From Limibacter armeniacum (GTDB lineage: Bacteria > Bacteroidota > Bacteroidia > Cytophagales > Flammeovirgaceae), in assembly GCF_036880985.1 (NCBI RefSeq), contig NZ_JBAJNO010000001.1, positions 310,001 through 374,000 on the forward strand: a DNA stretch of 64,000 bases, in the 5' to 3' direction. The notes beneath the pieces were generated by a model. The model did no database searches, was not told the origin of the DNA, and saw nothing but the letters and a program-made list of their open reading frames with translations. Below, piece by piece: positions 1,661 through 60,150 of this stretch (positions are counted from its first letter, which is position 1; each line of letters starts with the position of its first letter). The position numbers and the translations under genes are program-made.

Positions 1661-3151
1661 TTAGATCCCTTTTTTCAAACTCAACTTAAAGGTATAGGCA
1701 AAAGCTTCTGCCACCTCTTCGGGCATTTCTATCTCCAACCCATTTTTGGTCTGTTCCCATTTTAAAGACCCGCCATACCCTAGCAGGAATACTTCTTTCA
1801 CCTTATCTTTCTTCGAAACTGATTTCAACAGCAATTTGCCTTGTGGGCGATCGAGCACAATGCCGAAAACGACTTTCTCATCCTTGGTGCGCGTATAGCG
1901 AATGTCTTTAGAGGTATAGGCGAGGTTCTTTTTGATAAAGCTGCCTTCTTTTTCCAGTACCGTAGGACCTTCTGCAGCAATTTTCCAAGGGCGGGTGTTG
2001 TAGATGCCTTCGCCATTTACTTTAAGCCATGCACCGATTTGCTTCAGCATTTCTTTTTCATTCTCAGGAATGTTGCCGTCACTGTCTGGACCTACATTAA
2101 GCAGCAGACAGCCGTTCTTGCTGACGATATCAACCAAAGCGTCTATAATATCATTGGCATCTTTGGTTGACTTTCTGCTTGAATGGAACCAAGCTGGTGT
2201 CATGGTATCATCGGTCAGCCATGCTTTTTCCTGTACGTCTTTGACCCTTCCTTTTTCGTAGTCAACGATAGCGCCTGGCAAATAAGGAGAATAGTTCTTT
2301 ACCGTGGTTGCGACTTCCTTATTATTGGCAACACCATAATTGTAATAATCCGCTAGGAATGGATACATCAAGTCGTTCGGGATGATTCGGGTGCCCATAT
2401 CTAGCCAAACCATATCAGGGTTGTACTTTGTTATGTATTCATCCAAAAGCCCTCTCCACCATTTTCTGAATTGTGGAGACAGTGGATCATCTCCTTTGTG
2501 AGGCTTAAAATACAGATCTTCAAATGCAGGATTCGCCCCGTCATATTGATAGGAAGGCACAAAATAGCGCCATGTATGGCTGTGGTGGAAAGAGGCGATG
2601 TATTTCATGCCACGTTTACGGATTTCCTTTTCAAGTTCGGCAGAAGGATCGATGCCTGCCATGTTGATGGCATTCCAACGGGTAACGTCACTGTTCCACA
2701 TGGCATATCCGTCGTGGTGAATGGCTACAGGTCCGGCAAAGCGTGCACCGGCTTCCTGAAACAGTTCCGCCCATGCTGCAGCGTCAAACGACTTGGGTTG
2801 AAATGTCTTGATAACATCCTTCCAGCCAAATTCTTTCTGATCACCAAATTTCTCTTTGTGTACATTATAAGCCCAATGTGCGCCCTTGTTGAGCGAGTCC
2901 GGCATTGGTTGACCAGTACGGTCCCAGCTGCGATCAGCATACATATAGTAAGGATACCATCCGACTCCGGCAAGTTCATTACCTACGGTTGTGGGTGTCC
3001 AGTGTGTATAGATGCCGAACTTGGCATCTTGAAACCATTCAGGCATCTGGTGGGTATCAAGGGATTTATAAGTAGCCTGAAATTGTGCTTTAGCAGTCTG
3101 CAACCCAAACAGCAACGCAACTGACAGGATACTGAATTTTAATTTATTCAT
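1661..3151 (-). CDS. GH29 alpha-L-fucosidase-type glycoside hydrolase (alpha-L-fucosidase or alpha-L-galactosidase)
   Basis: This 496-residue secreted enzyme starts at the ATG that gives a good signal peptide ending QTAKAQ; an ATG 13 codons upstream would spoil it. The mature N-terminus carries the GH29 signature [17 protein letters not shown], and the barrel has the [10 protein letters not shown] and VWLDMG motifs, with D251 as the expected retaining nucleophile. A short beta-sandwich domain follows. GH29 enzymes release alpha-L-fucose; some members also take L-galactose, which differs from fucose only by a C6 hydroxyl. In a red-algal galactan locus an alpha-L-galactosidase is a plausible alternative. 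It is downstream of a sulfatase on the same strand (153-bp gap), suggesting desulfation followed by L-sugar removal. Confidence 0.88.
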
Positions 3152-3235
3152 CAGTATTGGATTTTTTAATAAAGGGTAAATGTCATCCAACGGTTATTAG
3201 GAGGTTGGAAAAGAAGGGAGCATAGTTGCCTTGTC

Positions 3236-3303: not shown

Positions 3304-4863
3304 TTAGTGCAATGTCAATTCATTGAAGCTTTTTGGCTCAAAACCTTTTACTTCCTTGAGGTAATCCTTCTTCATTTTTGCCAAAATCTCAGGGTGTTTT
3401 TCGCTCAGGTTTTGTTCCTGAGCAGGGTCTTCTTTCAGGTTGTAAAGCTGAAAATGTTTAGCACGTCCAAGCTCAATACCCACTTGTGCATTGACAGGGT
3501 TACCCTCATACGGCGGAATCATTAGCCAGTCACCGGAACGGTAAGCAAGGCTACGTCCTGCTTCTACCACATACGTTTCTCTTCCTTTCTGAGAAGTTCC
3601 CATAAAGGCATCCAACGTATTTTTACTGTCTGTTGCTTCCTGATCCAATTTCAGTAGGGCGTTGACAGAATTGAAGATATCCAGTTGAGAGACCAACGCA
3701 TCAGATTCCATTGGCTTGATCGTGCCTTTCCACATGCAAAGGAACGGCACGTGAGTTCCGGCATCATATAGGCTATACTTGCCCCCTCTCAAACCGCCAG
3801 TCGGTGTATGCAGTCCATTTCGGATATCGGATTGGTCGAAGTAACCGTCATTCAGCACCGGACCGTTGTCACTTGAGAAGAAGATCAGGGTATTTTCAAG
3901 CAGTCCTTCTTCCTTCAGAGTTTTCATAAACTGACCGATAGTCCAGTCTGCTTCCACGATTACATCACCTCTTGGTCCAAGATCAGTGCTGCCTACAAAT
4001 TTCGGGTTCGGTACACGTGGCACGTGCGGCTGATGCAGGGCATAGTATAGGAAGAAAGGTTTTTCCTTGTTCTGTTTTACAAAATCCTGTGCAATGTTCA
4101 GGAAATGCTCCGACATATTTTCATCATCCCAATGGGCACTCTTGCCACCTTTCATATAGCCGATTCTCGGAATGCCGTTGACAATGGACTGGTTGTGCCC
4201 GTGGTGCCATTTCATTTTCAGCAGTTCAGGGTTGTCCAGTCCTGTCGGTTCTCCCTCAAAGTTCTTTTTGTAACTTACCTCAATCGGGTCATTGAGGTCA
4301 AGTCCCACCACGTTGCCGTCTTCCAAATAGACAGTCGGTACCCTGTCATTGGTAGCACCCATAATGTACGCATACTCAAAACCTACCTCATTTGGGCCCG
4401 GGCTTACACGCTCATTCCAGTTCACCTGTCCGTTTCCGACACCCAAATGCCACTTGCCTACTACCGCTGTCGTATAGCCATTGGCTTTCAGTTTTTTAGG
4501 CAAAGTCATTTTTTCAGTGCCGATCAGCAGAGGAGCATCACCGCTAAGGATTTGCGCATCCTTGTTCTTCCAAGGATACTCTCCAGTCAAAAGCGCATAA
4601 CGGCTAGGAGTGCACGTAGATGAGGTCGCATAACCATTGGTAAAACGAATACCCTGTTTGGCGATCTTGTCGATATTGGGTGTCTTGATAGCTTTTGAGC
4701 CATAGCAGCTCAAATCCCCAAAACCAAGGTCATCCATATAGAGAATGATGACATTGGGCTTATCTGAAATGTTCTTACCCTTTTGTGCCATGCTTTGTTG
4801 AGTAGAGAACATCCCTCCCACAAGCATGGATAAAAGCAGTAGAATATTAGTGTGTTTTTTCAT
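3304..4863 (-). CDS. S1-family sulfatase, secreted (CTPSR)
   Basis: This 519-residue arylsulfatase-type enzyme has a signal peptide ending SMAQ, using the second ATG; the first, 10 codons upstream, adds a non-signal extension. The metal-binding start NVIILYMDDLGFGDLSCYG and the formylglycine motif C84-T-P-S-R are intact, followed by VVGKWHLG and FSSDNGP, which complete the calcium and sulfate pocket. It hydrolyses a sulfate ester on a carbohydrate, probably in the periplasm. It needs a formylglycine-generating enzyme that is not encoded in this window. It is followed by GH29 and diverges from a second sulfatase at 5294. A conserved promoter element lies 62 bp upstream. Which position on which galactose it desulfates cannot be read from the sequence. 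Confidence 0.9.
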   Translation of the reverse strand: MKKHTNILLLLSMLVGGMFSTQQSMAQKGKNISDKPNVIILYMDDLGFGDLSCYGSKAIKTPNIDKIAKQGIRFTNGYATSSTCTPSRYALLTGEYPWKNKDAQILSGDAPLLIGTEKMTLPKKLKANGYTTAVVGKWHLGVGNGQVNWNERVSPGPNEVGFEYAYIMGATNDRVPTVYLEDGNVVGLDLNDPIEVSYKKNFEGEPTGLDNPELLKMKWHHGHNQSIVNGIPRIGYMKGGKSAHWDDENMSEHFLNIAQDFVKQNKEKPFFLYYALHQPHVPRVPNPKFVGSTDLGPRGDVIVEADWTIGQFMKTLKEEGLLENTLIFFSSDNGPVLNDGYFDQSDIRNGLHTPTGGLRGGKYSLYDAGTHVPFLCMWKGTIKPMESDALVSQLDIFNSVNALLKLDQEATDSKNTLDAFMGTSQKGRETYVVEAGRSLAYRSGDWLMIPPYEGNPVNAQVGIELGRAKHFQLYNLKEDPAQEQNLSEKHPEILAKMKKDYLKEVKGFEPKSFNELTLH

Positions 4864-4924
4864 ATTGGAACTAAAAATTGTGATACGAATCAAGGGATAA
4901 TCTTACTGAATTCTTCAAGGATAT

Positions 4925-11495: not shown

Positions 11496-14078
11496 GTGAA
11501 GAAGATAGCTATTGCCTTAACTCTGTTATTGTGTCCATTTTGGGGAAATGCTCAATCAGGAAAAAAATATTTTAAGCAACTTAAAAATGAAAGGGTCGAA
11601 TCAGATTCTTCTGTAGCATGGCGCAACTTTGGTCCGGGTATGTCTGGGTATTGTGAGGAATTTTGGTGTCACCAAACGGATACAAGTGTCATGTTTCTGG
11701 GACCTGACATGCATGTAGCTTTTGGTACATGGGACAATGGCAGGTCATGGCATACCATAAAAGACAGTGATGGAGATGGGAAGGATTTGGAAAGGGTACA
11801 TGACATTCAGTTTTCATTGGTCAATCCTGATTATGGAGTTGCATTGGAAAGGTCAGGATTGGTATTTGAAACCAAAGACCGCGGGCGCTCATGGCAATTT
11901 GTTAATGATATCGGGAATGCACATACCAAGATTGCCATACATCCTAAAAACGATAACATCTGGCTGATCGGGGCAGGTGATTTCTGGAATGTCAAGAACA
12001 ACCACCGATCAATAAATAAACCGCATGGAATCACGCACAAGAGAGCAGACTATGGTTATGTGAAAATGACAACCGACAAGGGTAGAAGTTGGAAGAAGGT
12101 AGCCACCAATATTGCGGAGGATTTGGATGTGGGTAGAATTGTTTACAATCCTAATCACCCTGACAGTGTAGTTATGGTAACCAACCATGGTATGTACTTG
12201 AGTGCTGATGGGGGTAATAACTGGCAACAAAGTGCAGACGGACTACCAATGAACCTTCCACGTGACCTGACTTCTTATTATAATACAGATACAAAAGAGT
12301 GGGTGCTTTATATGGTGGAGCAGACGGTTTACGAACCAAATGGAAAATCGATCAATGCTAAAGGAGGAGTTTATAAGAGTATTGACGGCGGTGTAAGCTG
12401 GATAAACGTAACTGGCAATTTGGGATTTGACCTTTCAATAATCAATGATGGGGTTATCCGTGACGGTTACCATAAAGCTGTTTCCCATTGGTTGGGTATG
12501 TCAAAAGTGGAATTCAAACAACAATACCCTGAGTTGCCAAGCCAAACAATATCCGTTTACAACAGGATTGCGGTAAATCCACTGAATAAAAACGAAATCT
12601 ACCTAGTTCATAACAAGAAACACGATAAGGCATTTGGTCCGGGTGATGTATGGAAAACAGAAGATGGAGGAAAGACTTGGTTTGCTTGTGCCCGAAACGG
12701 GAAATACTGGTTGAGTGGCAAAAACAAGGAATATTGGGAAGCCAAAGGAAATCCGGCAGATGCCAATGTCAACTTTGCCCATCTCCAAACTTATATGGAT
12801 AACCAGAACGAGACTTCAGGGACTCGAATGATTGCCATCAACGCAGTAGGAGAAATATTGATTGGCATTGACCAACAGACTTTGCGCTCCCACAATGGAG
12901 GCAAGAGCTGGGATCAGGTAGACGACTATGAAACCGCTCCTGGCAGTAACAAGTGGGTAGGCCGTGGAGGAAGCAACTTGCCGGGTAGGTTTATGCTTTT
13001 GGAGACAGGCATCAAGGACCGATACCTGCTGTGCAGTGGAGAACATGGCTTATGGCAAACAACTAGTTTAGGAGACTATCCTGACAAGAAAGCCATTGCA
13101 GTGGAACAGATAGAAGGGCAGGTGCATGATCACAGTGGAAATCATGGGGCACACTCAATTTCTACAGTGGCTGTTCATCCCAAAGACCCGCAAACAATCT
13201 ATACATTAAGCTGGAGACAGGAGCATAGAGGCAAACTTCGCCGCACAACTGATGGGGGTAAAACATGGGAAAATATCGCCACCCTTTTTGACGCAGACAA
13301 TCCAAGTTGGAGAGGGGTAGCCTATCAGAATTCTTTGACGATTGACCCTGTTAATCCAAAGAATATGTATTTCTGTGCCACACATATTGGCATTGCGGAA
13401 ATAAGTGGAGGAAAAGGTCCTGAACTGACGAAAGGGGAATATGGCTTCTACCGCTCAACAGATGGCGGACACACTTGGGAAGTGAGCAACAATGGTTTTC
13501 ATAAAGGTATCAGTATCAGAAGGATTGCTATGTATCCGGAAAATCCGAAGGAAATTTATGCAGCTGCTAACGATAACAATGGTGGCTTGTACAGAAGCAC
13601 AAATCAGGGGAGGAAATGGCAGAAAGTGGCTTTGCCCGCCGAGATCAAGGCAGTCAACAACATCTTTATTGACCGCCATAACAAGAACTTGCTGATCAGT
13701 ACAGGACGCAGAACGGGTACCTTTGAAGAAGGAGGCGTTTGGAGAAGTTCGGACAATGGTGCCACTTGGAAGAAAATCTTCAAGGCACCTTATGTATGGC
13801 AGGCTGAGACCTCACCAATCAATTCGGATATCATAGTCATCAGTGTGGCAGGACAGGCAGGTGAACAAACCCATCAGTTTATGAATCCGGGTGTGTATCT
13901 CTCAAAAGATGGCGGGAAGTCATGGAAGAAAATCAACCAAAACCTTGGACAACCTGATAAGATTGTGGACGTAAAACCGGACCCCTACAATGAAAACCTG
14001 ATCTGGTGTGCCTCATGGGGATGTGGCTGGTTTGTGGCAGAAATTGATGCAGTAAAGGAAGGTTGGACTTCTAAGTAA
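11496..14078 (+). CDS. Asp-box double beta-propeller protein (sortilin/GH74-like), core-only paralogue
   Basis: This 860-residue secreted protein begins with GTG (no in-frame ATG gives a signal peptide), with signal MKKIAIALTLLLCPFWGNAQ. It contains about twelve Asp-box (BNR) motifs of the form S/T-x-D-x-G-x-x-W, for example KTEDGGKTW, RTTDGGKTW and RSSDNGATW, spread along its whole length. That number and length fit two seven-bladed propellers, as in GH74 or sortilin/Vps10-type folds. The core is shared with the two proteins at 17429 and 21362, but this one lacks their GLUG and T9SS domains and so is probably periplasmic. No known activity can be assigned; it may be a glycosidase, a lyase or a binding protein for the galactan. 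First gene of a three-gene operon with a GH43-like and a GH140-like enzyme. Confidence 0.82.
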   Translation: MKKIAIALTLLLCPFWGNAQSGKKYFKQLKNERVESDSSVAWRNFGPGMSGYCEEFWCHQTDTSVMFLGPDMHVAFGTWDNGRSWHTIKDSDGDGKDLERVHDIQFSLVNPDYGVALERSGLVFETKDRGRSWQFVNDIGNAHTKIAIHPKNDNIWLIGAGDFWNVKNNHRSINKPHGITHKRADYGYVKMTTDKGRSWKKVATNIAEDLDVGRIVYNPNHPDSVVMVTNHGMYLSADGGNNWQQSADGLPMNLPRDLTSYYNTDTKEWVLYMVEQTVYEPNGKSINAKGGVYKSIDGGVSWINVTGNLGFDLSIINDGVIRDGYHKAVSHWLGMSKVEFKQQYPELPSQTISVYNRIAVNPLNKNEIYLVHNKKHDKAFGPGDVWKTEDGGKTWFACARNGKYWLSGKNKEYWEAKGNPADANVNFAHLQTYMDNQNETSGTRMIAINAVGEILIGIDQQTLRSHNGGKSWDQVDDYETAPGSNKWVGRGGSNLPGRFMLLETGIKDRYLLCSGEHGLWQTTSLGDYPDKKAIAVEQIEGQVHDHSGNHGAHSISTVAVHPKDPQTIYTLSWRQEHRGKLRRTTDGGKTWENIATLFDADNPSWRGVAYQNSLTIDPVNPKNMYFCATHIGIAEISGGKGPELTKGEYGFYRSTDGGHTWEVSNNGFHKGISIRRIAMYPENPKEIYAAANDNNGGLYRSTNQGRKWQKVALPAEIKAVNNIFIDRHNKNLLISTGRRTGTFEEGGVWRSSDNGATWKKIFKAPYVWQAETSPINSDIIVISVAGQAGEQTHQFMNPGVYLSKDGGKSWKKINQNLGQPDKIVDVKPDPYNENLIWCASWGCGWFVAEIDAVKEGWTSK

Positions 14079-14114
14079 CTATAGAAGCTGACGACAAACA
14101 AACCCAGTGAAAAA

Positions 14115-15491
14115 ATGAGAATGAAACCACTGTTAGTAATAGCCATAATGGGCGTATTAGGAAGCTGTTCTTTAACAGAAAATAAATCAGTAAGGGTAGC
14201 GGCAGCCCATTTGAATGAGGCAGTAAAAGTGGATGTGATTGTACCCGAACATGGCATGGCTGATCCGCATGCCTGGGTACAGAATGACACTGTCTTCATC
14301 ATCTGTGGACATGATGAGTCTTGGGAAGGGAAAGGCTCTTTCAGGATGGATCGTTGGGAAGTGTGGTCTTCTACAGACCTGAAAAATTGGGAACATCACC
14401 GGAATATCCTTCCTTCACAGACGTATATCGGCGACAAGCCCAACTGCTGGGCTGGAGATGTTTGTGAAAGGGATGGCAAATACTACTGGTTCTTTTCAAA
14501 CAGGAACATCAATACCGGTGTGATGGTGGCTGACCAGATCACAGGAGAATACAGGGATCTGTTGGGTAAACCTCTGCTGCCGGAAGGCATCGTCCCTGTT
14601 CATCCTTATGATCCTGAAATCTATATTGAAGATGGTGTATATACCATTTGTTTTGGAGCGGGTACTTATTATATGGCAACCCTTTCCGAGGATATGAAAT
14701 CGCTGGCTACTGAGCCGAAGAAGATCCTTGTTCAGGATGAAAATGGAAATCCCGTTAAGGCAGATGACAAGTCGACACTGTTCAAACGCAACGGATGGTA
14801 CTATCTGGTGTATGGCAGCAGGTATGCCATGGCTGAAAACCTTTATGGTCCTTATACATTCAAAGGAGCCTTTCTGGAAGGAGGGCACACGAGTTTCTTT
14901 GACTGGCACGGTCAGTTGTATGTCTTGCAGGAAAACCATGATATCAGTGCCTTTTACCGTGGGGCAAGCCTGAAACCTGTATTCTTCAATGACGATCAGA
15001 CAATCTACATTCCGGAAGATGACCGCATGTATCCGGCACCCGGCAGACCTTGGGAATTTAAAAGTACGACGATGGGTTGGCAGGCTTTGAAAGGCACCGA
15101 TATAGCCTATCATAAGGGAGTGATTGCCGGTCAGTTGACTGAAAAGGAGGCGACTGTAGTCAGTGCTCCTTGGCTCTACACCGATACCCGTGAATGTTCC
15201 GAGATCACCATCAGAATGAAAAACAGCAGCGTTGCCAAGGCATTGAAGTTTTCCATATTTTCCCGTGACAGGGGAAATGGTTTCTGGACTTCCTTTACCG
15301 AACCGGTAGACTGGAGCAAGCAGGATTGGGTCACCATTCCAATCAAAGCTAATGACACCGACTTTCATACTTACACCATTCCAATTTCCCAATTCAAAGA
15401 TCTGAAGGAAAGACTGATGCAGGTCGCTGTTCAGCCTGCCGCTGATGCGGTGAGCGGCAATTGGGAGATTGATGAAATCATCGTGAAATAA
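14115..15491 (+). CDS. GH43-like five-bladed propeller glycosidase, lipoprotein
   Basis: This 458-residue protein has a lipobox, LGSC (C18), so it is anchored to a membrane. The propeller carries a GH43-type triad pattern: D50 in MADPHAW, D166 in HPYDPEIY, and E255 in FLEGGHTS as candidate general acid. GH43 enzymes are inverting exo- or endo-enzymes for beta-xylose, alpha-L-arabinose or beta-galactose. A beta-sandwich domain of about 130 residues at the C-terminus looks like a carbohydrate-binding module. The gene follows the Asp-box propeller by 36 bp and precedes the GH140-like gene by 9 bp, so the three are likely co-transcribed. The substrate cannot be read from sequence. Confidence 0.75.
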   Translation: MRMKPLLVIAIMGVLGSCSLTENKSVRVAAAHLNEAVKVDVIVPEHGMADPHAWVQNDTVFIICGHDESWEGKGSFRMDRWEVWSSTDLKNWEHHRNILPSQTYIGDKPNCWAGDVCERDGKYYWFFSNRNINTGVMVADQITGEYRDLLGKPLLPEGIVPVHPYDPEIYIEDGVYTICFGAGTYYMATLSEDMKSLATEPKKILVQDENGNPVKADDKSTLFKRNGWYYLVYGSRYAMAENLYGPYTFKGAFLEGGHTSFFDWHGQLYVLQENHDISAFYRGASLKPVFFNDDQTIYIPEDDRMYPAPGRPWEFKSTTMGWQALKGTDIAYHKGVIAGQLTEKEATVVSAPWLYTDTRECSEITIRMKNSSVAKALKFSIFSRDRGNGFWTSFTEPVDWSKQDWVTIPIKANDTDFHTYTIPISQFKDLKERLMQVAVQPAADAVSGNWEIDEIIVK

Positions 15492-15500
15492 ATAGAAGCC

Positions 15501-17153
15501 ATGAGAAAAATATATTGTACCGCTTTTCTAATGCTTATCCTGCTGCAGGTAGGATTGGCTCAGGTAAAAACTTGGCAATCACCTAAAGCCAACAAACCTA
15601 TCACCCTTGCGCAATGGGAAGTGAACGATGTAGTGTTTAAGGCTAAGAAAACCGTAAGCCAACCATTTGAAAAAGAGGTTTTTGCTTTAGTTCAAAGCGA
15701 AGAGGGAAATCAGAAAATACCGCTGTTCTACAATGGAAACAGCGAATGGGTTTTCCGCTATTCAAGCGCATCGGTTGGCGAGAAATCATTTACCATTTCA
15801 TCCGAAATAAAGGAGCTGAATGGAGAGAATGGGAAGTTCATTATTACGGAAAATCAAAAGGAAAACCGCCATGGAGGGGTAGTCCTGAATAAGGAAAATC
15901 CACAGCACCTGTTCTATGAGGATGGCTCACATTATTTCAATCTGGCTTTTGAATGCGATTGGTTATTTGCCTTGGACTATGGACAGCAGGATATCCCAAA
16001 GACGAAACACCTGCTTTCGCTATTGAATCAGAATGGATTCAATCAGGTCGTAATGAACGTGTATTCTTATGACGTCAAATGGCAGAAGGACAAAAAGCTG
16101 GAAGCACATCCCGAACATGAGTACGGAGGGCGTGAAGATATTTACCCTTTCCTCGGCTCCAACGCCAACCCTGATTACAGCGCTCTGAACATCGATTTTT
16201 TCAAGCATTTCGATAAGGTCATTGCCGAAATGCATGATCAGGAATTGGTCAGCCACCTGATGATCTATGTCTGGAACAAGCTGGTCTCATGGCCTGACAT
16301 GAACACGGAAGCCGATAACCGTTACTATGATTATGTCATCAAGCGCTATCAGGCATTTCCCAATATTGTGTGGGATGTTTCCAAGGAAGCATTGCTTTAC
16401 GGAAGGGCGACCAATGAATATATTCTGGAGCGGATTGAGCGTGCCAAAAAGCTGGATGCTTATGGTCGCTTGATCTCCGTTCACGATTTTGGCTTCTGCA
16501 AGAACAACCCTGAGCAGGTGGATTTTATCTCCATGCAAAACTGGCAGCACACGCTTTATCAGAATATGTTGGAAGCAAGAAAAGCATTCCCACATAAACC
16601 CATTTTCAATATTGAGCATGGCGGTTATGAGGAGTCTCCTTATGTGGTGTTCCCCGGCGCCTATGTCAATGCGGAAGCCTGTTTGAGAAGAAATTACCAG
16701 TGTCTTTTTGCGGGCGGCTACACGACCTATTATTGGCAAGGCGCTGCATGGAATGTGGTGATCCATAACCCGTTTGAGCAGTCGGAAAGTTTCAGCAAAC
16801 CGCATTTTGAGTATTTCAAGCATATGAGAAAGCTGTTTGAGACAGTGCATTTCGAAAATTGTGAGCCTATATCATGGCACAATTCAAGTGGCTTTAACCT
16901 GACCAACAAGAAGGACGGGATTATGCTGATGTACACGCCAAAAGAAAATCAGTGGATAGGCACCAAGAATGCCATCAAAAAGAATTTCACTTATGAGCAG
17001 GCGACACAGCAGTGGTTCAATACGCTGACGGGTGAACTGACCGATGAGGTAAAATATGATGATGCACCTTTTGACTTCTGGAGCGATCGCCCATGGAAAG
17101 GAGAAGCAGATGCTATCCTGATTATCAAGAACCTGACGCCAACAGATCTATGA
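15501..17153 (+). CDS. Putative glycoside hydrolase, DUF5060 + DUF4038 (GH140-like TIM barrel)
   Basis: This 550-residue secreted protein has a signal peptide ending VGLAQ. Residues about 22-115 form an immunoglobulin-like DUF5060 domain, and residues 120-470 form a TIM barrel with GGVVLNKENPQHLFYEDG at its entry. Two glutamates in clan-A positions are visible: E296 in WDVSKE and E372 in FNIEHGG. A small beta domain ends the protein. Relatives of this fold include the GH140 apiosidases and many uncharacterised enzymes of algal-polysaccharide loci. Location is likely periplasmic. Last gene of the operon that starts at 11496; no terminator hairpin is seen directly after it. Confidence 0.72.
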   Translation: MRKIYCTAFLMLILLQVGLAQVKTWQSPKANKPITLAQWEVNDVVFKAKKTVSQPFEKEVFALVQSEEGNQKIPLFYNGNSEWVFRYSSASVGEKSFTISSEIKELNGENGKFIITENQKENRHGGVVLNKENPQHLFYEDGSHYFNLAFECDWLFALDYGQQDIPKTKHLLSLLNQNGFNQVVMNVYSYDVKWQKDKKLEAHPEHEYGGREDIYPFLGSNANPDYSALNIDFFKHFDKVIAEMHDQELVSHLMIYVWNKLVSWPDMNTEADNRYYDYVIKRYQAFPNIVWDVSKEALLYGRATNEYILERIERAKKLDAYGRLISVHDFGFCKNNPEQVDFISMQNWQHTLYQNMLEARKAFPHKPIFNIEHGGYEESPYVVFPGAYVNAEACLRRNYQCLFAGGYTTYYWQGAAWNVVIHNPFEQSESFSKPHFEYFKHMRKLFETVHFENCEPISWHNSSGFNLTNKKDGIMLMYTPKENQWIGTKNAIKKNFTYEQATQQWFNTLTGELTDEVKYDDAPFDFWSDRPWKGEADAILIIKNLTPTDL

Positions 17154-17428
17154 AACAATGCCGTTTAGCTTAATAACTTGAGCTGTATGATATCTATCGA
17201 TTGACGACTATTTACACATCAAATAAAATCACGGATAGTTTATGATGAGCAACTGACTTGATCATGATAAATTATTCGTGATCACTACTCTGAGTTGTAA
17301 TTTTCACACTCCCCCCAACTGAGCTTAGAATAGACAGAAACCTACCTTACTGAACAGTATTGTTACATGATGTCATCACTTAAATAACCCTAACTGGGAA
17401 CTATTCACTATTTAACAACACGTTTAAT

Positions 17429-20400
17429 ATGTTTGATTCAAAACAAATCACACTCTTTGTGCTATTTGTATTGTGGCAGTTCCACGCAGCTGCACAATAT
17501 GGAGGAGGAAGTGGCACAAGCCAAAACCCTTACTTGATAAAAACGGCGAACCATCTTGTAACACTGAATACAACGCCTAGTGATTGGACTGGTAAATACT
17601 TCAAGCTGTCTAATGATATCAACATGGCGGGTAAGACATTTACACCAATAGGTAATGCTGCTCAGCTGTTTAATGGCACTTTTGACGGGAATCATAAGGT
17701 AATCACTAATCTTACGGTTACTGCAGGCACTTCAGCAGACGGAACGGGTTTATTTGGTACGTTCAAAGGATATGTCAACAACCTCGGAATTGAAAATATC
17801 AGTATCAATGCCTTCGGTATATCCAAGGTGGGAGGAATTGTAGGGTACATGACAGGTGGCACCGTAACAGACTGTTATACAAAAGGAGGAAGCATTGATG
17901 TAGGCAATGGTGGTTGGGCAGGCGGTATTGTGGGCGTTATGTGGAATGCCGATGTCTCGTATGTCAAAGACTGTTACAGTTCTGTCGCCATTACGGCAAG
18001 TTGGGGTTCGGGCGGAATTGTTGGTGCAACACGTGGACCAAATATCATCAAACGAGTAGTTTTTTATGGAACAATTACCAACAACCCTGCGATCACCACG
18101 GTTCAGAATGACCCTGCTGATAACAATAAAAATGGTATTGTTCCTACAAAGGCTTATTTCGCTGTTTCTACAGGCGCTTCTGATACAAATGCAACTTCAC
18201 TGAACACCACAAATTTGGCTGTTGAAGGCAGTTATTCAACCTTTGATTTCACCAATGACTGGATGATTCAACCTGAATTGGAATATGCGGTTTTGAAAGG
18301 ATTCCTACCTGACTTGAATTCCCAATTTTTCGACAATATAGAAAATCAACGGGTGGTCTCTGACCAAAACATAGAATGGAAGAATTTCGGTCCGGGTATG
18401 TCGGGTTATTGTGAGGAAGTCTGGTGCCACCCAACGGATAAAAATATTATGTTTTTAGGTCCGGATATGCATGTGACTTATGGCACTTGGGATGGAGGAG
18501 CAACCTGGCAAACCATTAAGGATAGTGATGGAAATGGTATGGACATGCGTCGTGTGCTGGACATAGAGTTTTCGTTGCAGAACCTGGATTATGCAGTGGC
18601 ATTGGATTGGGAAGGACAACTCTATGAATCAAATGATAGAGGAAAAACATGGAGTTTCTTGACAGATGTGGGAGGAAGGCATACTGAGTTGGCAATACAT
18701 CCCAACAATGACAATATCTGGTTTGTAGGAGCGGGAGACTTTTGGAATGTTAAAGACAATCACAAAACATTGGCTCAACCCCATGGAATTAAACATTCGA
18801 CTGCTGATTATGGCTATGTCTGGAAAACAACCAATAAGGGAACTTCGTGGACAAAAGTAGCAACCAATATTTCACCTGATTTGGATGTAGCCAAAATCCT
18901 GTTCAATCCACATAATCCAGATAGTATGGCAATGGCAACCAGTCATGGCATCTATGTAAGCAGCAATGGGGGAAATAACTGGGTAGCTGGAGGAAACGGA
19001 TTGCCCAATAACTTGCCTAGGGATATGACCTCTTTTTATAATTCGAACACACAAAAGTATAAGTTGTATGCAGTGGAACAGACGGTATATGAACCAAATG
19101 GAACTAGCATAATATCCAAAGGTGGGGTGTACAGAAGTGATGATGGGGGGCTAAACTGGATTAATATCACAGGTAATTTAGGGATTGATCTTTCAGTTAT
19201 CACTAACTACAATGTGAGGGATCGATATCATAAGACCGTTTCACATTGGTTGGGTATCTCTAAATCCACATCTACTAGTACCTATACCACCTATCCTAGT
19301 CAGGCACTTTCTGTCTATAATCGAATAGTGATTAACCCATACAACAGGAATGAAATTTATATCTCCCATAACAAGAAACACGATAAGGGTTTTGGACCTG
19401 GAGATGTGTGGAAAACTTTAGATGGAGGTAATACATGGACGGCCTGTGCCCGAAACGGTGCTTATTGGATAAATGAGACGGATAAAGCTTACTGGCAGGC
19501 AAAAGGGAATGATATCGGAACCAATATGGAGTTTGCCCATTTGCAGGACTATATGGATGAAGAAAGTGAAGGATCTGGAACCCGTATGATGGAAATCAAT
19601 GCCGGCGGAGAACTGATTATTGGCGTAGACCAGCAAACATTACGATCAACTGACAAGGGCGTAAGCTGGCAACAGATTGATGACGACGAAACGGCATTAG
19701 GTAGTAACAGGTGGATAGGACGTGGAGATAGTAACCTTCCAGGCAGGTTTATGCTTTTGGAGACCGGTGTTACCGGACGGAAACTGTTCTGTAGTGGGGA
19801 GCACGGACTATGGCAATCGGCAAGTTTGGGAAGTTATCCTGATCCGAATGCTATGGCTGTTGAACAGATAGAAGGACAGGTACATGACAATAGCGGTAAT
19901 GTTGCAGCACATTCTGTTTCGACAGTGGCAGTACATCCCAACAATCCCAACAAAATCTATATGCTCAGCTGGAGACAGGAGCATAGAGGGAAACTTCGTC
20001 GAACGACAGATGGTGGACAGACCTGGCAAAACATTGCCACCATTTTTGAAGCCAATAACAATGAATGGGAAGGATTGGCTCCTCAATATTCCTTAACTAT
20101 CGATCCTGTCACGCCTAACAATATGTACTTCTGTTCCATTTATAAAACTATTTCGGAAATAAGCGGAGGAACAAGCCCTGCATTGACCAAAGGAGCTTAT
20201 GGGGTGTACCGCTCATCGGACGGTGGATTCACTTGGAATGTTAGTACAACAGGATTTCCACAAAATGCCAGCGTTAGAAGAATCGCCATGCATCCTGATA
20301 ACCCTAGTGTTTTTTATGCTGCACTCAATCAGTTTGGAAACAATGACCCTGGAGGATTGTATATCTCTACTGATAAAACCGTGACTTGGAGTCAAGTAAT

Positions 20401-21118
20401 GATACCTTCAGAAATCAAGTCAGTAAACAATGTGTTTATAGACCGGAATACCAAATACCTCTACATTTCTTGCGGAGCAAGATCTGGTGCATTATATGAC
20501 GGAGGGGTGTGGAGAAGTAAGGATGATGGCGTCTCATGGGAGAAAATTTTTAGGGCGCCTTACGTATGGCAGACGGAAGTTTCACCAGCGAATCCAAATA
20601 TTATTGTTATTTCGGTGCCAGCCCAGACCCCTAATTATATAGACAATTTTAAAAATCCGGGTATATATCTTTCCCAAGATGGGGGTGTCAGCTGGGCAAA
20701 GATTAACAAAGGAATTGGTCAGCCCGATAAGATGGTGGATGCCAAGCCTGACCCTGAGGATGAAAACCTGCTTTGGTGTGCTGGATGGGGAAGCGGATGG
20801 TTCAAGACTGCTATTCAGAATTTAGGTGGTGCCTCAAGCCGAATTGCGGGCAGTCAGGATTTGGTGCTGAATAAAGAAGTTGATCTGGTCAATAAAGTAC
20901 AGCTATATCCTAATCCAATAACTGATGGTAATTTGAAAGTGGTGGGACTTGAGCCTGATGCTCACTATACCATTCTCAATATCAATGGACAAGTTGTGGC
21001 ATCTGGTACAATTACCGCATCGCAAATAGAAGTGAATCAACTTATTTCAGGATTCTATATTATTCATATATCAGATAGTCAAAAATCTATTTCTCAAAAG
21101 GTATTAATTAAGAAGTAA
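17429..21118 (+). CDS. GLUG + Asp-box double propeller + T9SS tail protein, copy 1
   Basis: This 1229-residue protein is exported by T9SS. Order: signal peptide 1-23; a GLUG-repeat region about 24-285 with glycine-rich GGIVG motifs; the Asp-box double propeller from about residue 313 (NFGPGMSGYCEE) to 1130; and a T9SS type A sorting domain from 1155 (LYPNPITDGN) ending in KVLIKK. Copy 2 at 21362 has exactly the same length and order. The core is homologous to the 860-residue protein at 11496, including WCHPTDK, GPDMHVTYGTWDGG and SWRQEHRGKLRRTTDGG. It is probably released or bound at the cell surface and acts on the polymer before import. No catalytic family can be named with confidence. Transcribed alone and ended by the hairpin at 21146. 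Confidence 0.85.
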   Translation: MFDSKQITLFVLFVLWQFHAAAQYGGGSGTSQNPYLIKTANHLVTLNTTPSDWTGKYFKLSNDINMAGKTFTPIGNAAQLFNGTFDGNHKVITNLTVTAGTSADGTGLFGTFKGYVNNLGIENISINAFGISKVGGIVGYMTGGTVTDCYTKGGSIDVGNGGWAGGIVGVMWNADVSYVKDCYSSVAITASWGSGGIVGATRGPNIIKRVVFYGTITNNPAITTVQNDPADNNKNGIVPTKAYFAVSTGASDTNATSLNTTNLAVEGSYSTFDFTNDWMIQPELEYAVLKGFLPDLNSQFFDNIENQRVVSDQNIEWKNFGPGMSGYCEEVWCHPTDKNIMFLGPDMHVTYGTWDGGATWQTIKDSDGNGMDMRRVLDIEFSLQNLDYAVALDWEGQLYESNDRGKTWSFLTDVGGRHTELAIHPNNDNIWFVGAGDFWNVKDNHKTLAQPHGIKHSTADYGYVWKTTNKGTSWTKVATNISPDLDVAKILFNPHNPDSMAMATSHGIYVSSNGGNNWVAGGNGLPNNLPRDMTSFYNSNTQKYKLYAVEQTVYEPNGTSIISKGGVYRSDDGGLNWINITGNLGIDLSVITNYNVRDRYHKTVSHWLGISKSTSTSTYTTYPSQALSVYNRIVINPYNRNEIYISHNKKHDKGFGPGDVWKTLDGGNTWTACARNGAYWINETDKAYWQAKGNDIGTNMEFAHLQDYMDEESEGSGTRMMEINAGGELIIGVDQQTLRSTDKGVSWQQIDDDETALGSNRWIGRGDSNLPGRFMLLETGVTGRKLFCSGEHGLWQSASLGSYPDPNAMAVEQIEGQVHDNSGNVAAHSVSTVAVHPNNPNKIYMLSWRQEHRGKLRRTTDGGQTWQNIATIFEANNNEWEGLAPQYSLTIDPVTPNNMYFCSIYKTISEISGGTSPALTKGAYGVYRSSDGGFTWNVSTTGFPQNASVRRIAMHPDNPSVFYAALNQFGNNDPGGLYISTDKTVTWSQVMIPSEIKSVNNVFIDRNTKYLYISCGARSGALYDGGVWRSKDDGVSWEKIFRAPYVWQTEVSPANPNIIVISVPAQTPNYIDNFKNPGIYLSQDGGVSWAKINKGIGQPDKMVDAKPDPEDENLLWCAGWGSGWFKTAIQNLGGASSRIAGSQDLVLNKEVDLVNKVQLYPNPITDGNLKVVGLEPDAHYTILNINGQVVASGTITASQIEVNQLISGFYIIHISDSQKSISQKVLIKK

Positions 21119-21145
21119 CAGGAACTTCTAGTCTGATATTTTAAG

Positions 21146-21177
21146 ACCCTCTTTTATAGCAACCTATAAAAGAGGGT
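21146..21177 (+). terminator. Intrinsic terminator after propeller copy 1
   Basis: A perfect 13-bp stem (21146-21158 with 21165-21177) with a 6-nt GCAACC loop is followed by TTTGTCTTTT. Confidence 0.85.
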
Positions 21178-21361
21178 TTGTCTTTTAGTGTTTACATGCA
21201 TGAATACAGTACTTAAAAGGGTAGTAATTATTAAAAATAGAGGGGTGGTATTTTAGCTTTAATTTATAACCGTAAAATCAACACCTTTTTGTCAGGTAAA
21301 GCTTTGGTAGAAGTTAGTATTACACTGAAAATGAATGTCTCATACTTCTACTAATAACTTT

Positions 21362-24300
21362 ATGCAAAAGAGAATTACCTTCTTGCTTCTGCTCATATTG
21401 GTACAGCTGAAAGCTGTAGCACAATACGGAGGAGGCGATGGGTCAGGTGCAAACCCGTACCTGATCACCGAACCAGAACATCTGGTGGCGCTGAGTAACA
21501 CATCTGCTGACTGGTCTGGCAAATATTTTAGGCTGATGAATGACCTCGATATGACGGGTCACACATTGCTCCCAATTGGTACTATCAGCACGCTTTTTAC
21601 AGGTGTTTTTGATGGTAACAATAAGGTAATCAATAACTTGGCAGTGACAGCAAGAGCAGCCAATGATGGTGTGGGGCTTTTCGGATCGTTCAAAGGCACT
21701 GTCAATAACCTTGGCATTGAGAATATCAATATCACTGTGCCTGGTATTCCGAGAGTAGGTGGATTTGCTGGTTACATGGCCGGTGGCGCAATCACAAGTT
21801 GCTATACCAAAGGAGGTTCGATTGATGTAGGAGCAGCTGGTTGGGCTGGAGGTATTGTAGGCGTTATTTGGAATGCGGAAACCTCTTTCGTACAAGACTG
21901 TTTCAGTTCCGTGGATATCAATGCTTCTTGGGGATCAGGTGGTATTGTAGGAACAACAAGAGGACCGAACATTATTGATCGGGTTGTTTTTTATGGTACC
22001 ATTACTAACGGTAACCCTGCTATTGTAACGGTACTGAATGACCCTAATAACAACGCTAAAAACGGAATACCACCCACCAATGCCTATTATGCTTTGGCGA
22101 CAGGTGCTTCGGATGAGTATGCAACAGGATTGGATGAAGCAGCCTTGGCAGAAGCGAGCAGTTACGCCACTTTTGATTTTGGATTAAAATGGGTAATGGA
22201 ACCAACATTGGGTTATGCCATCCTGAAAAACCATTTGTTGGGTGAAATAACCAGGTTTTTTGATACCATTGAGAGGGAAAGAATGGAATCTGATCCAAGT
22301 GTAGCATGGAAAAACTTTGGTCCAGGAATGTCAGGCTATTGTGAAGAAATCTGGTGTCACCCGACAGATAAGGATGTAATGTTCTTGGGACCGGATATGC
22401 ATGTCACTTATGGCACATGGGATGGAGGCGCAACTTGGCAAACCGTTAAGGACAGTGACGGTAACGGTTTGGATATGCGCCGTGTATTGGATATTGAATT
22501 TTCATTGCAGGATTTGGACTATGCCGTGGCATTGGATTGGGAAGGTCAATTGTATGAATCGCACGACAGGGGCAGATCATGGTCATACCTGATGGATGTA
22601 GGAGGCAGACATGCTGAATTGGCGATTCACCCCACCAATGACAACATTTGGTTTGTAGGAGCCGGTGATTTCTGGAATGTCAAATTCAACCATAAGACAT
22701 TGGCACAACCACATGGTATCAAGCACCCGACAGGTGATTATGGTTACGTATGGAAAACAACGGACAAAGGAGCCACATGGACAAAAGTAGCCACTAATAT
22801 TTCTCCTGATTTGGATGTGGCGAAAATTATCTTTGATCCTAACAATCCAGACAATATGGCTATGGCAACCAGTCACGGTATGTTCGTTAGCTCCGATGGA
22901 GGAGAAAATTGGACAACTGGGGGTAATGGGCTTCCAAATAATTTGCCACGCGACCTGACTTCTTTTTATAATGAAAAGAACAAGAAGTTTATCCTGTACA
23001 CAGTTGATCAGACAGTTTATGAGCCAAATGGCGCTGGCATTATCTCCAAAGGTGGGGTATTCAGAAGTGAAGATGGCGGTCAGAACTGGACCAGTATCAC
23101 AGGAAATCTAGGCATTGACCTGACCGTGATTGCGGATTACTTTGTAAGGGATGGTTATCAGAGAGCGGTATCACATTGGTTGGGTATGTCCAAGTCAGCA
23201 TTCAAAAGTACTTATTCTGAATTTCCATCACAGGCGCTGTCGGTCTATAACCGAATCATGGTCAATCCGAAAAACAGCAATGAGATCTATATCTCCCATA
23301 ACAAGAAACACGATAGGGGTTTCGGACCGGGAGAGGTTTGGAAAACAACGGATGGAGGAGAGACTTGGACGGCATGTGCCCGAAATGGTGCTTACTGGCT
23401 TGCTGAAAAAGACAAAGCCTATTGGGAATCAAAAGGTAATCCTACAGGAACAAATATGCAGTTTTCGCATATGCAAGTCTACATGGATAATCAGAATGAG
23501 CTTTCAGGTACTCGTATCATGGCGGTCAATGCAGCAGGTGAGTTAATTATTGGGGTAGATCAGCAAACATTCCATTCAACAGATAAGGGAGAAAGCTGGC
23601 AGCAGATTGATGATGATGAAACTGCACCCGGTAGCAATGCATGGGTTGGAAGAGGCAATAGCAACTTACCAGGTAGGTTTATGCTATTGGAAACAGGTAT
23701 TTCAGGTCGTAAGCTGTTCTGTAGCGGAGAGCACGGTTTGTGGCAATCAGCTGAACTAGGAAGCTATTCTGACCAAGGAGCAATGGCAGTAAAACAGATT
23801 GAAGGACAGGTACATGACCATAGTGGAAACCATGCAGCACACTCGGTGTCTACTGTTGCTGTACATCCTAATGACCCTAATACAATTTATATATTAAGCT
23901 GGAGACAGGAGCACAGAGGCAAACTTCGCCGGACAACAGATGGCGGACAGACTTGGGAAAATATTGCGACCATTTTTGAGGCTGCAAACAATAGCTGGGA
24001 AAATCTGGCACCTCAGAACTCTCTGACCATTGACCCTGAAAATCCTGAGAACATGTACTTCTGTTCCACTTACAGAACCATTTCAGAGGTAAGTGGTGGC
24101 ACTAGTCAGCCATTGACCAAAGGTGAGTATGGTGTATACCGTTCATCAGACGGTGGTTATACTTGGCAGGTAAGCACGACAGGAATGCCGGAGAAAGCAA
24201 GTGTAAGACGAATAGCCATGCATCCTGATGATCCAAGTGTATTTTATGCAGCACTGAATCAGTTTGGTAACAATGATCCGGGAGGTTTGTATATCTCTAC

Positions 24301-25051
24301 AGATAAAACGGTTACCTGGAGTCAGGTTACGATTCCTTCTGAGATCAAATCTGTCAATAATGTATTTATAGACCGTAATACCAAGCATATCTATATTTCC
24401 TGTGGCTCAAGGGCGGGAGCGTCTTTTGCTGGAGGTGTATGGAGAAGTAGAGATAATGGCATTTCATGGGAAAAAATATTCAAGGCACCATACGTATGGC
24501 AAACGGAGGTTTCACCTGTCAATCCGGATATTATAGTGCTATCAGTACCAGCTCAAGTCCCTACAATGGTCGATAACTTCAAGAACCCAGGTATTTATCT
24601 GTCTCAGGATGGTGGTGAAAGCTGGATAAAAGTCAATAATGGATTAGGGCAGCCCGACAAGATAGTGGATGTAAAGCCTGATCCAGAAGATGAAAAAGTG
24701 CTTTGTTGTGCCGGATGGGGCAGTGGCTGGTTCAGAGCTGAAATCACAACTGATGATACTGGTTCAACAGATCCTGATTGGGATAAAAAAGATATTTTAG
24801 GGATTAAGCCTAATAATAAAAAGACGGGTGTTCTATTGTATCCAAATCCTGTAACAGAAGGTTATATCAATGTTTCGGGAGTTACTCCGGATGCTAGTTT
24901 TAGAATTTATAGCATACATGGAGAACCAGTGATATCAGGCAATATTACACAACCTCAAATAGATGTTTCAGCCCTCCATGGTGGTGTTTATATCATCAAT
25001 ATTATTGATGGTGAATATATGACCAGAAAGACCATTCTGATTAAAGAATAG
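21362..25051 (+). CDS. GLUG + Asp-box double propeller + T9SS tail protein, copy 2
   Basis: The start at 21362 gives the signal peptide MQKRITFLLLLILVQLKAVAQ and a protein of 1229 residues, exactly the length of copy 1; the ATG nine codons upstream adds a polar leader and is less likely. GLUG region about 22-285, propeller core from about 313, T9SS tail from about 1155 (LLYPNPVTEGY) ending TILIKE. Identity with copy 1 is high in the propeller core and lower in the linker (about 1125-1150) and tail, as expected for an older tandem duplication. One visible difference near the end is CCAGWGSGWF here against WCAGWGSGWF in copy 1. Function unassigned, as for copy 1; surface location inferred. Confidence 0.85.
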   Translation: MQKRITFLLLLILVQLKAVAQYGGGDGSGANPYLITEPEHLVALSNTSADWSGKYFRLMNDLDMTGHTLLPIGTISTLFTGVFDGNNKVINNLAVTARAANDGVGLFGSFKGTVNNLGIENINITVPGIPRVGGFAGYMAGGAITSCYTKGGSIDVGAAGWAGGIVGVIWNAETSFVQDCFSSVDINASWGSGGIVGTTRGPNIIDRVVFYGTITNGNPAIVTVLNDPNNNAKNGIPPTNAYYALATGASDEYATGLDEAALAEASSYATFDFGLKWVMEPTLGYAILKNHLLGEITRFFDTIERERMESDPSVAWKNFGPGMSGYCEEIWCHPTDKDVMFLGPDMHVTYGTWDGGATWQTVKDSDGNGLDMRRVLDIEFSLQDLDYAVALDWEGQLYESHDRGRSWSYLMDVGGRHAELAIHPTNDNIWFVGAGDFWNVKFNHKTLAQPHGIKHPTGDYGYVWKTTDKGATWTKVATNISPDLDVAKIIFDPNNPDNMAMATSHGMFVSSDGGENWTTGGNGLPNNLPRDLTSFYNEKNKKFILYTVDQTVYEPNGAGIISKGGVFRSEDGGQNWTSITGNLGIDLTVIADYFVRDGYQRAVSHWLGMSKSAFKSTYSEFPSQALSVYNRIMVNPKNSNEIYISHNKKHDRGFGPGEVWKTTDGGETWTACARNGAYWLAEKDKAYWESKGNPTGTNMQFSHMQVYMDNQNELSGTRIMAVNAAGELIIGVDQQTFHSTDKGESWQQIDDDETAPGSNAWVGRGNSNLPGRFMLLETGISGRKLFCSGEHGLWQSAELGSYSDQGAMAVKQIEGQVHDHSGNHAAHSVSTVAVHPNDPNTIYILSWRQEHRGKLRRTTDGGQTWENIATIFEAANNSWENLAPQNSLTIDPENPENMYFCSTYRTISEVSGGTSQPLTKGEYGVYRSSDGGYTWQVSTTGMPEKASVRRIAMHPDDPSVFYAALNQFGNNDPGGLYISTDKTVTWSQVTIPSEIKSVNNVFIDRNTKHIYISCGSRAGASFAGGVWRSRDNGISWEKIFKAPYVWQTEVSPVNPDIIVLSVPAQVPTMVDNFKNPGIYLSQDGGESWIKVNNGLGQPDKIVDVKPDPEDEKVLCCAGWGSGWFRAEITTDDTGSTDPDWDKKDILGIKPNNKKTGVLLYPNPVTEGYINVSGVTPDASFRIYSIHGEPVISGNITQPQIDVSALHGGVYIINIIDGEYMTRKTILIKE

Positions 25052-28375: not shown

Positions 28376-30010
28376 CTATTGTTTTTCCACTTGCTTAAGT
28401 TTTTTCATTCTTCCAATTCCGCTAGCTGGTGCATCATGTTCTGTTGCATGAAGGTCAAACTGTGGCATAATGGCTTCCAGCATTTTCTTTTCTTTCCTGT
28501 GCGCTTCTGACACTTTGCTCCAATCTGTGATTTTCGGGTAGGAGATCAGGTCCTTAGGTGTTTTGGCGGTATTGTAATAATTGCCTTTTCCGTCTATCAT
28601 CACATTTTTGCCCCTGATCAACTGCTTCTCCTGATGATAGGAGTAGATCCACTCACGGTGTTCTTTCTGATCGGTTGTCAGGTAAGTCAGTAGGCTTTCA
28701 CCATTCAGCTCATAACTTTCAGGCACCTTTATCCCCACTATATCCACGATAGTAGGTAGTACATCAGAGATATTGGCTAGAATATCCTGCTCACCTTGCT
28801 TGCTCATATTCAGGCATGGCGCATAGATAATCAGCGGAACATGCACTCCTTTCTGTGAAACAGGGACATTCTTTCCATAGCCGCTGGTACCGTTGTCTGC
28901 ACAGAAAATCAGAATGGTGTTGTCCTCAATACCCAGTTCTTTCAGTTTCTTCATGTATTGCCATACTTGATAATCAAGATAATTAATATGGTTATGGATA
29001 CCACCTTCTGTTACTGTTCCATGCGTATCGTATTGTCCTGCATCACCTGTGATATGAGGTTGAGTTTTGGTGTATTGTCCATTTTCCCATTTGATCTTAG
29101 GAGTGCCAGGCCATTTTTCCCTTTTATCCTTGTCAGTTTCGGAACTGAAGAAATCCCAGCCGTCGTGACCTAGGTGTGTGGTATGGTAGATGAAGAATGG
29201 CTGTTCATCTTTCTGCTTTCTTTTCATAAAGTCAAAGATGAAATCTAGTTCCACATCAGGACCGTAAGTGTTCAAGCCATACGATTGACGGGATTCAGGG
29301 GTGTTCGGCCACCATTCAAACTGTTGCTTGGCATCTGGATGGTTCATTAGCTGTACATGAGGTTGCCAGTACCACCCGTATTGCTGGTAGTAATCCACTT
29401 TATCGCCTGTATCTTCATTGATCAGTACCTTCTTACCATTTTGCTTTTTTGAGATGATCTTAAAGTCGGTGTATGGATTTTCATCACTTTTGGATTGTAT
29501 TTCCCCAGGTGTGAAAACTGCTTCATCAAATCCGAAGTTTTCGACACCAGACATCTGTGTTTTACCTGCCCAATAAGTAGCGTATCCACCTGCTTTCGCT
29601 ATATGGGCAATGGTGTACGGAGAGCTTTCATACAAAGGCCAAGTTTCTTTTCTTCCTTTTTCGTTGGTCCATTTTCCCTTGTCCTTGTTGTGCCACCATT
29701 TATGAAGATGTGCATAACGACCTGTCATCATCATGGCACGGCTAGGCGAACAGATGGTGGATGCCCAAGTGTTTTTGACCCAAACACCCTCATTTGCAAG
29801 CTTGTCCAAGACAGGCGTTTGTGCTCTGTATTTCGGGTCTGAAGTATCACCACCTTGTGGTGCAGGTGACCATTGGGAGGCGCCGTAAATTGGCAATTCT
29901 CTGGCACTGATATCATCTGCATAAATCAGGATAATATTGGGCTTTTGTGCATGCCCCAATGATAATCCAATGATACACCACAGCACAAGGCTGCTCAATA
30001 TAGTCTTCAT
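28376..30010 (-). CDS. S1-family sulfatase, secreted (CSPSR)
   Basis: This 544-residue enzyme starts at the ATG before KTILSSLVLW, giving a signal peptide ending LGHAQ; the frame stays open 48 codons upstream but that part has no signal character. PNIILIYADDIS binds the metal, C87-S-P-S-R is the formylglycine motif, and YWAGKTQMSG and FCADNGTSG complete the active site. It is a distinct subtype from the other four sulfatases (large insert about residues 125-250). It stands alone, divergent from the ten-gene operon beginning at 30299, with which it shares a 288-bp control region. Desulfation of an agar- or porphyran-type oligosaccharide is inferred from context. Confidence 0.9.
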   Translation of the reverse strand: MKTILSSLVLWCIIGLSLGHAQKPNIILIYADDISARELPIYGASQWSPAPQGGDTSDPKYRAQTPVLDKLANEGVWVKNTWASTICSPSRAMMMTGRYAHLHKWWHNKDKGKWTNEKGRKETWPLYESSPYTIAHIAKAGGYATYWAGKTQMSGVENFGFDEAVFTPGEIQSKSDENPYTDFKIISKKQNGKKVLINEDTGDKVDYYQQYGWYWQPHVQLMNHPDAKQQFEWWPNTPESRQSYGLNTYGPDVELDFIFDFMKRKQKDEQPFFIYHTTHLGHDGWDFFSSETDKDKREKWPGTPKIKWENGQYTKTQPHITGDAGQYDTHGTVTEGGIHNHINYLDYQVWQYMKKLKELGIEDNTILIFCADNGTSGYGKNVPVSQKGVHVPLIIYAPCLNMSKQGEQDILANISDVLPTIVDIVGIKVPESYELNGESLLTYLTTDQKEHREWIYSYHQEKQLIRGKNVMIDGKGNYYNTAKTPKDLISYPKITDWSKVSEAHRKEKKMLEAIMPQFDLHATEHDAPASGIGRMKKLKQVEKQ

Positions 30011-30046
30011 ATTTACCAAGCGTTGTTTGTTTTCATGTTTATGTGA

Positions 30047-30075
30047 TAAAGGTAAACACATTTGCAGGGTAGCAA
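30047..30075 (-). promoter_or_regulatory. Predicted promoter of sulfatase 28376-30010
   Basis: On the minus strand TTGC (30072-30075) is separated by 17 nt from TACCTTTA (30047-30054), one mismatch from the Bacteroidota -7 box TAnnTTTG. The implied start of transcription is about 30 bp before the ATG. Confidence 0.4.
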
Positions 30076-30101
30076 GGTGATAATTCCCTCCAATTAAGGG
30101 G
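30075..30101 (-). promoter_or_regulatory. Shared CCCCTT...TCACCT element, sulfatase 28376-30010
   Basis: On the minus strand CCCCTTAATTGGAGGG leads into AATTATCACCT, which abuts the -33 TTGC. It resembles the elements at 4925 and 11201. The plus-strand core TCCCTCCAATTAAGGGGA matches 15 of 18 positions of the one at 60161-60178. Confidence 0.45.
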
Positions 30102-30145
30102 AGTAAACTGTACTTTTTACACATTTTATCTTGGTGATAAAATGC

Positions 30146-30174
30146 CCCCTTCATTTTATCTATTCTATTCAGGG
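30146..30174 (+). promoter_or_regulatory. Related CCCCTT element, ten-gene operon
   Basis: CCCCTTCATTTTATC continues into TATTCTATTCAGGG, 125 bp upstream of the GTG of the first gene. It keeps the CCCCTT head and the TTCA near the far end, but not the final CCT, so it is a weaker match than the sulfatase copies. Confidence 0.3.
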
Positions 30175-35594: not shown

Positions 35595-35631
35595 TAGGTT
35601 GAACATCATTATTAATAGAAATAAAAAGAGC

Positions 35632-59962: not shown

Positions 59963-60150
59963 ATTGCTGCCATTAAAAAAATGAGTATTCAATATTTTAC
60001 AAAACCCAATTTATCAGTGTAGGCAAGAATCATTGCGGAAAAAATAGGGCAACTAAAGGGGTGATTCTTTAAGGCATGAATAATACTGTTCGAATCAAAA
60101 GTGTTTCACTTATTAATAATCTATTGTTATGATTGCCCCAATGAAGTAAA

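Follow-up and report, generated by a model that had tools for sequence, protein, structure and literature searches.

Three GH74-like double-propeller proteins of Limibacter armeniacum, candidate glycoside hydrolases of porphyran-type agaran

Three intact paralogues in one carbohydrate cluster

Three large Asp-box proteins, encoded close together on a contig (C1) of Limibacter armeniacum, raise the question of what they do within a carbohydrate cluster that appeared to be directed at sulfated galactan. The window, which is the whole 64,000 bp stretch of DNA analysed here (C1:310001-374000), contained their genes, designated P1, P2 and P3, all with intact open reading frames.

P1, 11496..14078, + strand: 860 aa, GTG start; signal peptide (approximately residues 1-20) and double-propeller core
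P2, 17429..21118, + strand: 1229 aa; signal peptide, GLUG beta-helix, double-propeller core and T9SS type A tail
P2 N-terminal GLUG-type beta-helix, 17498-18319, + strand: P2 counterpart of the P3 domain
P3, 21335..25051, + strand: 1238 aa from 21335; architecture as P2
P3 N-terminal GLUG-type beta-helix, 21425..22252, + strand: best fold match 3n6z

Neither the GLUG beta-helix nor the T9SS tail was found on P1. The N-terminal domain of P2 and P3 is approximately 275 residues long and was predicted with a pLDDT of 89; its match 3n6z is a Bacteroides ovatus protein named as a putative IgA1 protease, which agrees with a GLUG-type beta-helix. The ATG at 21362 is Met10 of the mechanical P3 ORF (21335) and gives a more natural signal peptide (MQKRITFLLLLILVQLKAVAQ); it is probably the true start of P3, rather than 21335.

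The core of P1 showed 63.5% amino acid identity to that of P2 (over 832 aa) and 63.9% to that of P3 (over 839 aa), and P2 and P3 were 72% identical over 1230 aa. The Asp-box pattern [ST]x[DN]xGxx[WFY] matched 12 times in P1, 12 times in P2 and 13 times in P3, whereas 2000 shuffles gave on average 0.15-0.34 matches and at most 2-3; chance probably accounts for one match in P2 and two in P3. Those of P1 were split 7 + 5 between the two halves of the core. The core identities of 63-64% and the shuffle-tested counts confirmed the original observation of three paralogues with a common core (about 830 residues, about twelve Asp-boxes). Beyond the window, the contig encoded two further copies, at C1:225922-228474 (54% identical) and C1:302802-305333 (35% identical), such that the genome has five copies of the family, all on one contig. 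In the tree P2 and P3 were sisters, and P1 branched just outside the larger group that contains them.

The core is predicted to have a GH74-like fold

An AlphaFold2 model built on an alignment of 49 proteins showed two tandem propellers (pLDDT 91.8, pTM 0.90). When this model was compared with the PDB using Foldseek, hits 1 to 24 were all GH74 xyloglucanases (best E 1.5e-32), with a target TM of 0.66-0.75 for most of them; hits ranked after these had ≤0.63. VIA-align gave Z scores of 26-29 for GH74 over 620-665 aligned residues, the best (Z 28.9) covering 621 residues end to end; in other rows of similar Z only approximately 290-310 residues, equivalent to a single propeller, were aligned. A profile search of PDB sequences also returned GH74 enzymes as 14 of the best 15 matches (best E 7e-21). 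As Foldseek and the sequence profiles placed GH74 first and VIA-align matched it over both propellers, the core is predicted with high confidence to have a GH74-like fold, and the model and its end-to-end structural matches agree with the earlier proposal of a GH74-type double propeller.

The likeness to GH74 xyloglucanases (e.g. 6p2m, 6p2l, 2cn3 and 7kn8) consists of tandem seven-bladed Asp-box propellers that correspond end to end and of a conserved position for the first catalytic Asp. The sequence similarity was significant but blade-wise only, with 13-19% identity in the structural alignments, and the second acid of the P1-P3 family is probably a Glu. The C-terminal NDDxH motif, which is invariant in three aligned GH74 proteins and present in PDB GH74 alignments, was absent from the family; P1 has KINQNLGQPD at this place and the family consensus is KINKGLGQPD. 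As this signature is absent, P1-P3 were filed as GH74-like and not as members of GH74.

The NCBIfam model NF045728 (F510_1955 family glycosylhydrolase) scored 129.3 bits with P1, 118.3 with P2 and 136.6 with P3, below its curated cut-off of 175; it describes an Asp-box propeller of the same superfamily but spans 246 positions only. The placement of the core outside named families, as originally predicted, holds for the families that were tested. No description of the family was found in the open-access library searched; an assignment in CAZy or in subscription papers may already exist. P1-P3 probably represent an uncharacterised family with the GH74 fold.

Distribution of the family

A pattern scan of bacterial genomes revealed 46 loci encoding relatives, in Bacteroidota (mostly marine genera) and on one Kiritimatiellales contig. 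In a sample drawn evenly from the phylum at least 3 of 395 genomes were positive at E ≤ 1e-60, a lower bound as few candidates per genome were scored. A search of PLSDB identified an unannotated relative on a Persicobacter plasmid. Genomes bearing the family encoded several paralogues each.

Gene neighbourhood and the probable substrate

The window also encodes the following.

GH29, 1661..3190, - strand: best PDB matches, with equal scores, 7snk (alpha-L-fucosidase) and 7ljj (exo-alpha-L-galactosidase)
Sulf1 sulfatase, 3304..4893, - strand: PDB matches include S1_15A/S1_15B entries; relatives of approximately 60% in several family loci
GH43-like enzyme, 14115..15491, + strand: located between P1 and P2; closely related copies (65-83%) encoded in 6 relative loci
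DUF5060/apiosidase-like enzyme, 15501..17153, + strand: closely related copies (60-75%) encoded in 10 relative loci
Sulf4 sulfatase, 28376..30154, - strand: CSPSR motif
GH16, 59090..59992, - strand: closest to BpGH16C (8EP4), an endo-6O-methyl-beta-porphyranase

Orthologues of Sulf4 (≥50% identity) were encoded in 14 of the 46 relative loci and in 11 of these 14 lay directly beside a family gene. A distance of 45 kb separates the GH16 porphyranase from P1. A Pfam scan of the other neighbour proteins gave no clear substrate signal. Between C1:302000 and 374000 there were no SusD genes, compared to 46 SusD matches in the genome; this is a carbohydrate cluster without a classical SusC/SusD pair nearby.

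Several other ORFs of the window were noted. Those at 30299-31588 and 40001-41059 resembled divergent GH16 enzymes by eye (ADEFN...EIDIME and SDEFD...EIDFME, respectively) and had no significant Pfam hits; the former also has a weakly CBM35-like C-terminus. On visual inspection, the protein encoded at 35533-36948 resembled a glycosidase with a five-bladed propeller and is possibly GH117-like (anhydro-L-galactosidase); its only NCBIfam match was weak and of the beta-mannobiose-phosphorylase type. The signature pattern applied to the other sulfatases failed to match Sulf3 (9255-11123) and Sulf5 (42200-43648); it may be too strict. At the level of the contig, an identical 301-base stretch was present at 45400-45700 of the window (C1:355400-355700) and at C1:62-362, and identical GH16 copies were present at C1:13755 and C1:369093. 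As both repeat at one offset (355338), the ends of C1 probably overlap, and C1 may be a circular replicon of approximately 355 kb.

Among 38 related genomes, the double-propeller family was present in exactly the ten that encoded a BpGH16C-type GH16 (68-100% identity). Within the window's bacterial family the corresponding table was 10/0/0/8 (Fisher 2.3e-5, uncorrected for relatedness), and the co-occurrence lies mostly inside this one bacterial family. GH86 and alginate lyase were also tried as co-occurrence markers and neither tracked the double-propeller family exactly.

A further connection was found on a Saprospiraceae contig (L035), where a single ORF of 1071 aa encoded a GH16 domain and the double propeller; this fusion is known from a single metagenome-assembled contig. 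Its GH16 domain was closest to porphyranase B (PorB; 3juu, E 4e-81). In three Wenyingzhuangia genomes (L007, L011 and L013) a related GH16 was encoded next to the family gene: in L007 and L011 a gene 52% identical to the L035 domain ended 36 bases upstream, and in L013 one of 55% identity was the next gene upstream. GH86-type genes, with porphyranase domains, were present in eight other loci.

Based on the GH16, GH29 and sulfatase context, the co-occurrence, the PorB-like fusion, the GH86 genes and the adjacency of Sulf4, a porphyran-type sulfated agaran is the most likely substrate. The sulfated-galactan setting that had been proposed originally was borne out by the BpGH16C-type GH16, the GH29, the S1_15-like sulfatase and the PorB-like fusion and neighbours. 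This context sets the family, linked to red-algal galactan, apart from GH74, which acts on xyloglucan. What P1-P3 share with the PorB-like and BpGH16C-like GH16 and the GH86 porphyranases is a probable substrate, gene neighbourhoods and one fusion, whereas fold and catalytic machinery are unrelated.

The same neighbourhood could instead indicate that a GH74-like enzyme in a galactan context targets not the main porphyran chain but its side chains, some rare motif (galactan that is methylated, xylosylated or branched in another way) or oligosaccharides already released. The family loci carry numerous sulfatase genes alongside those for GH43, GH3, GH2 and apiosidase-like enzymes, paralogues are multiple in each genome, and P1, having no T9SS tail, may be periplasmic, all of which would fit such a role. 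P2 and P3, however, carry the T9SS tail expected of polymer-acting enzymes, and the GH16 enzymes fused to or neighbouring the family are of the endo-porphyranase type. We consider this reading unlikely, while regarding it as the most serious competitor to action on the polymer.

Candidate active-site residues

Comparison with GH74 identified the following residues.

P1 D71, 11706..11708, + strand: in GPDMHVAFGTW; falls without gaps on the first catalytic Asp of GH74 (RTDVGGAYRW)
P1 E516, 13041..13043, + strand: in LLCSGEHGLWQT (SGEHGLW); invariant in 87/87 relatives
P2 D346 and E791: counterparts of P1 D71 and E516
P3 D354 and E799 (1238-aa numbering): counterparts of P1 D71 and E516

D71 fell on the GH74 Asp in a comparison of the N-terminal halves and also in 6/6 MAFFT runs, and the spacing from the preceding conserved Trp was equal (29 residues) for both. 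The full-length HHalign alignment with GH74 slipped by one blade and was therefore left out of the residue mapping. The sequences of 2cn2 and 2cn3 differ exactly at the Asp aligned to D71 (RADIGG and RAAIGG), which is consistent with a known catalytic-residue mutant. E516 fell on the second GH74 catalytic Asp (the GDxxGF position) in 2/6 MAFFT runs. In the model D71 and E516 each sit between two strands, D71 where propeller 1 starts and E516 close to the beginning of propeller 2; moreover, the query's propeller 2 aligned, from the next blade onward, with GH74 propeller 1. As it is invariant and placed like D71, and as propeller 2 aligns with GH74 propeller 1, E516 is the strongest candidate for a second catalytic acid and would replace the GH74 Asp. 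Conserved acidic residues, for which a search in the cleft had originally been proposed, are present at the first GH74 catalytic position (D71) and probably at the second (E516). Also invariant in the 87 proteins were R574, Q575, W405, W414, N424, Y625, F626 and N797.

At position 71, 77 of the 87 relatives had D, nine had N and one row was gapped. The nine form one divergent clade, with Asn at both D71 and H517 (L076, L077, L080-L083, L088, L030 of 1201 aa and L051 of 1152 aa, some of them neighbouring copies), which is possibly inactive or mechanistically different. The co-variation of D71 and H517 (77 D/H, 9 N/N) was considered as a sign of contact and dropped, as N/N is confined to one clade and eight columns change at once on that branch.

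The Asn clade, together with a beta-helix and T9SS tail that fit surface display and with a second acid placed on the GH74 Asp in a minority of the MAFFT runs, would be consistent with non-catalytic proteins that bind or present polymer at the surface on a GH74 fold. Against this, every ungapped member outside that clade retained D71, E516 was retained without exception, and there were further invariant residues, charged and aromatic, that are not part of the Asp-boxes; we judge a non-catalytic role improbable, and more so than action on side chains or oligosaccharides.

Lyase and sortilin-like readings

Lyases with a propeller fold exist, and a lyase had been among the functions first suggested for P1-P3. 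The best fold matches across both propellers were, however, all GH74, and no uronic acid backbone that could undergo beta-elimination is known from porphyran-type agarans; as the inferred substrate lacks uronic acids, we regard a polysaccharide lyase as very improbable. Slighter still is the chance of a sortilin-like receptor (a sortilin-like propeller was another of the early suggestions) or of a T9SS accessory protein comparable to PorZ or BamI: Pfam PF15902 scored above its cut-off and the PorZ and BamI models matched weakly, but the latter scores were far under their cut-offs, the best PF15902 stretch covered only positions 3-114 of 446, and occurrence in so few of the sampled genomes is unlike that of a core secretion component. 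Sortilin/Vps10 domains share Asp-box blades with P1-P3 but consist of one 10-bladed propeller and the 10CC domains behind it, not two tandem GH74-type propellers, and membership was rejected on the grounds that PF15902 matched blade-sized pieces only and that the fold has two propellers.

Proposed function

The explanation that we favour, at even chances, is that P1-P3 are glycoside hydrolases acting on the polymer (endo), with porphyran-type sulfated agaran as substrate, and belong to an uncharacterised GH74-fold family of marine Bacteroidota and Kiritimatiellales. The fuller proposal, of a new glycoside hydrolase family with a GH74-related fold and an Asp/Glu pair instead of the Asp/Asp of GH74 that cuts porphyran or another sulfated, methylated agaran together with a dedicated S1 sulfatase, is put forward more tentatively, at slightly under even chances. 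The polysaccharide chain would lie in the groove between the two propellers, where E516 would donate a proton and D71 would activate water, and cleavage would be single-step (inverting), as in GH74. Given their beta-helix and T9SS tail, P2 and P3 would act outside the cell or on its surface; P1, in which the tail is absent, would act in the periplasm or be released by another route. The S1 sulfatases, Sulf4 above all, may expose or trim the cleavage sites.

If correct, this would add a missing class of polymer-cutting enzyme to the degradation of red seaweed and would extend the GH74 fold beyond the xyloglucan of land plants to marine sulfated galactan. The three proteins, the natural porphyranase fusion and the partner sulfatase would then be the targets for testing it.
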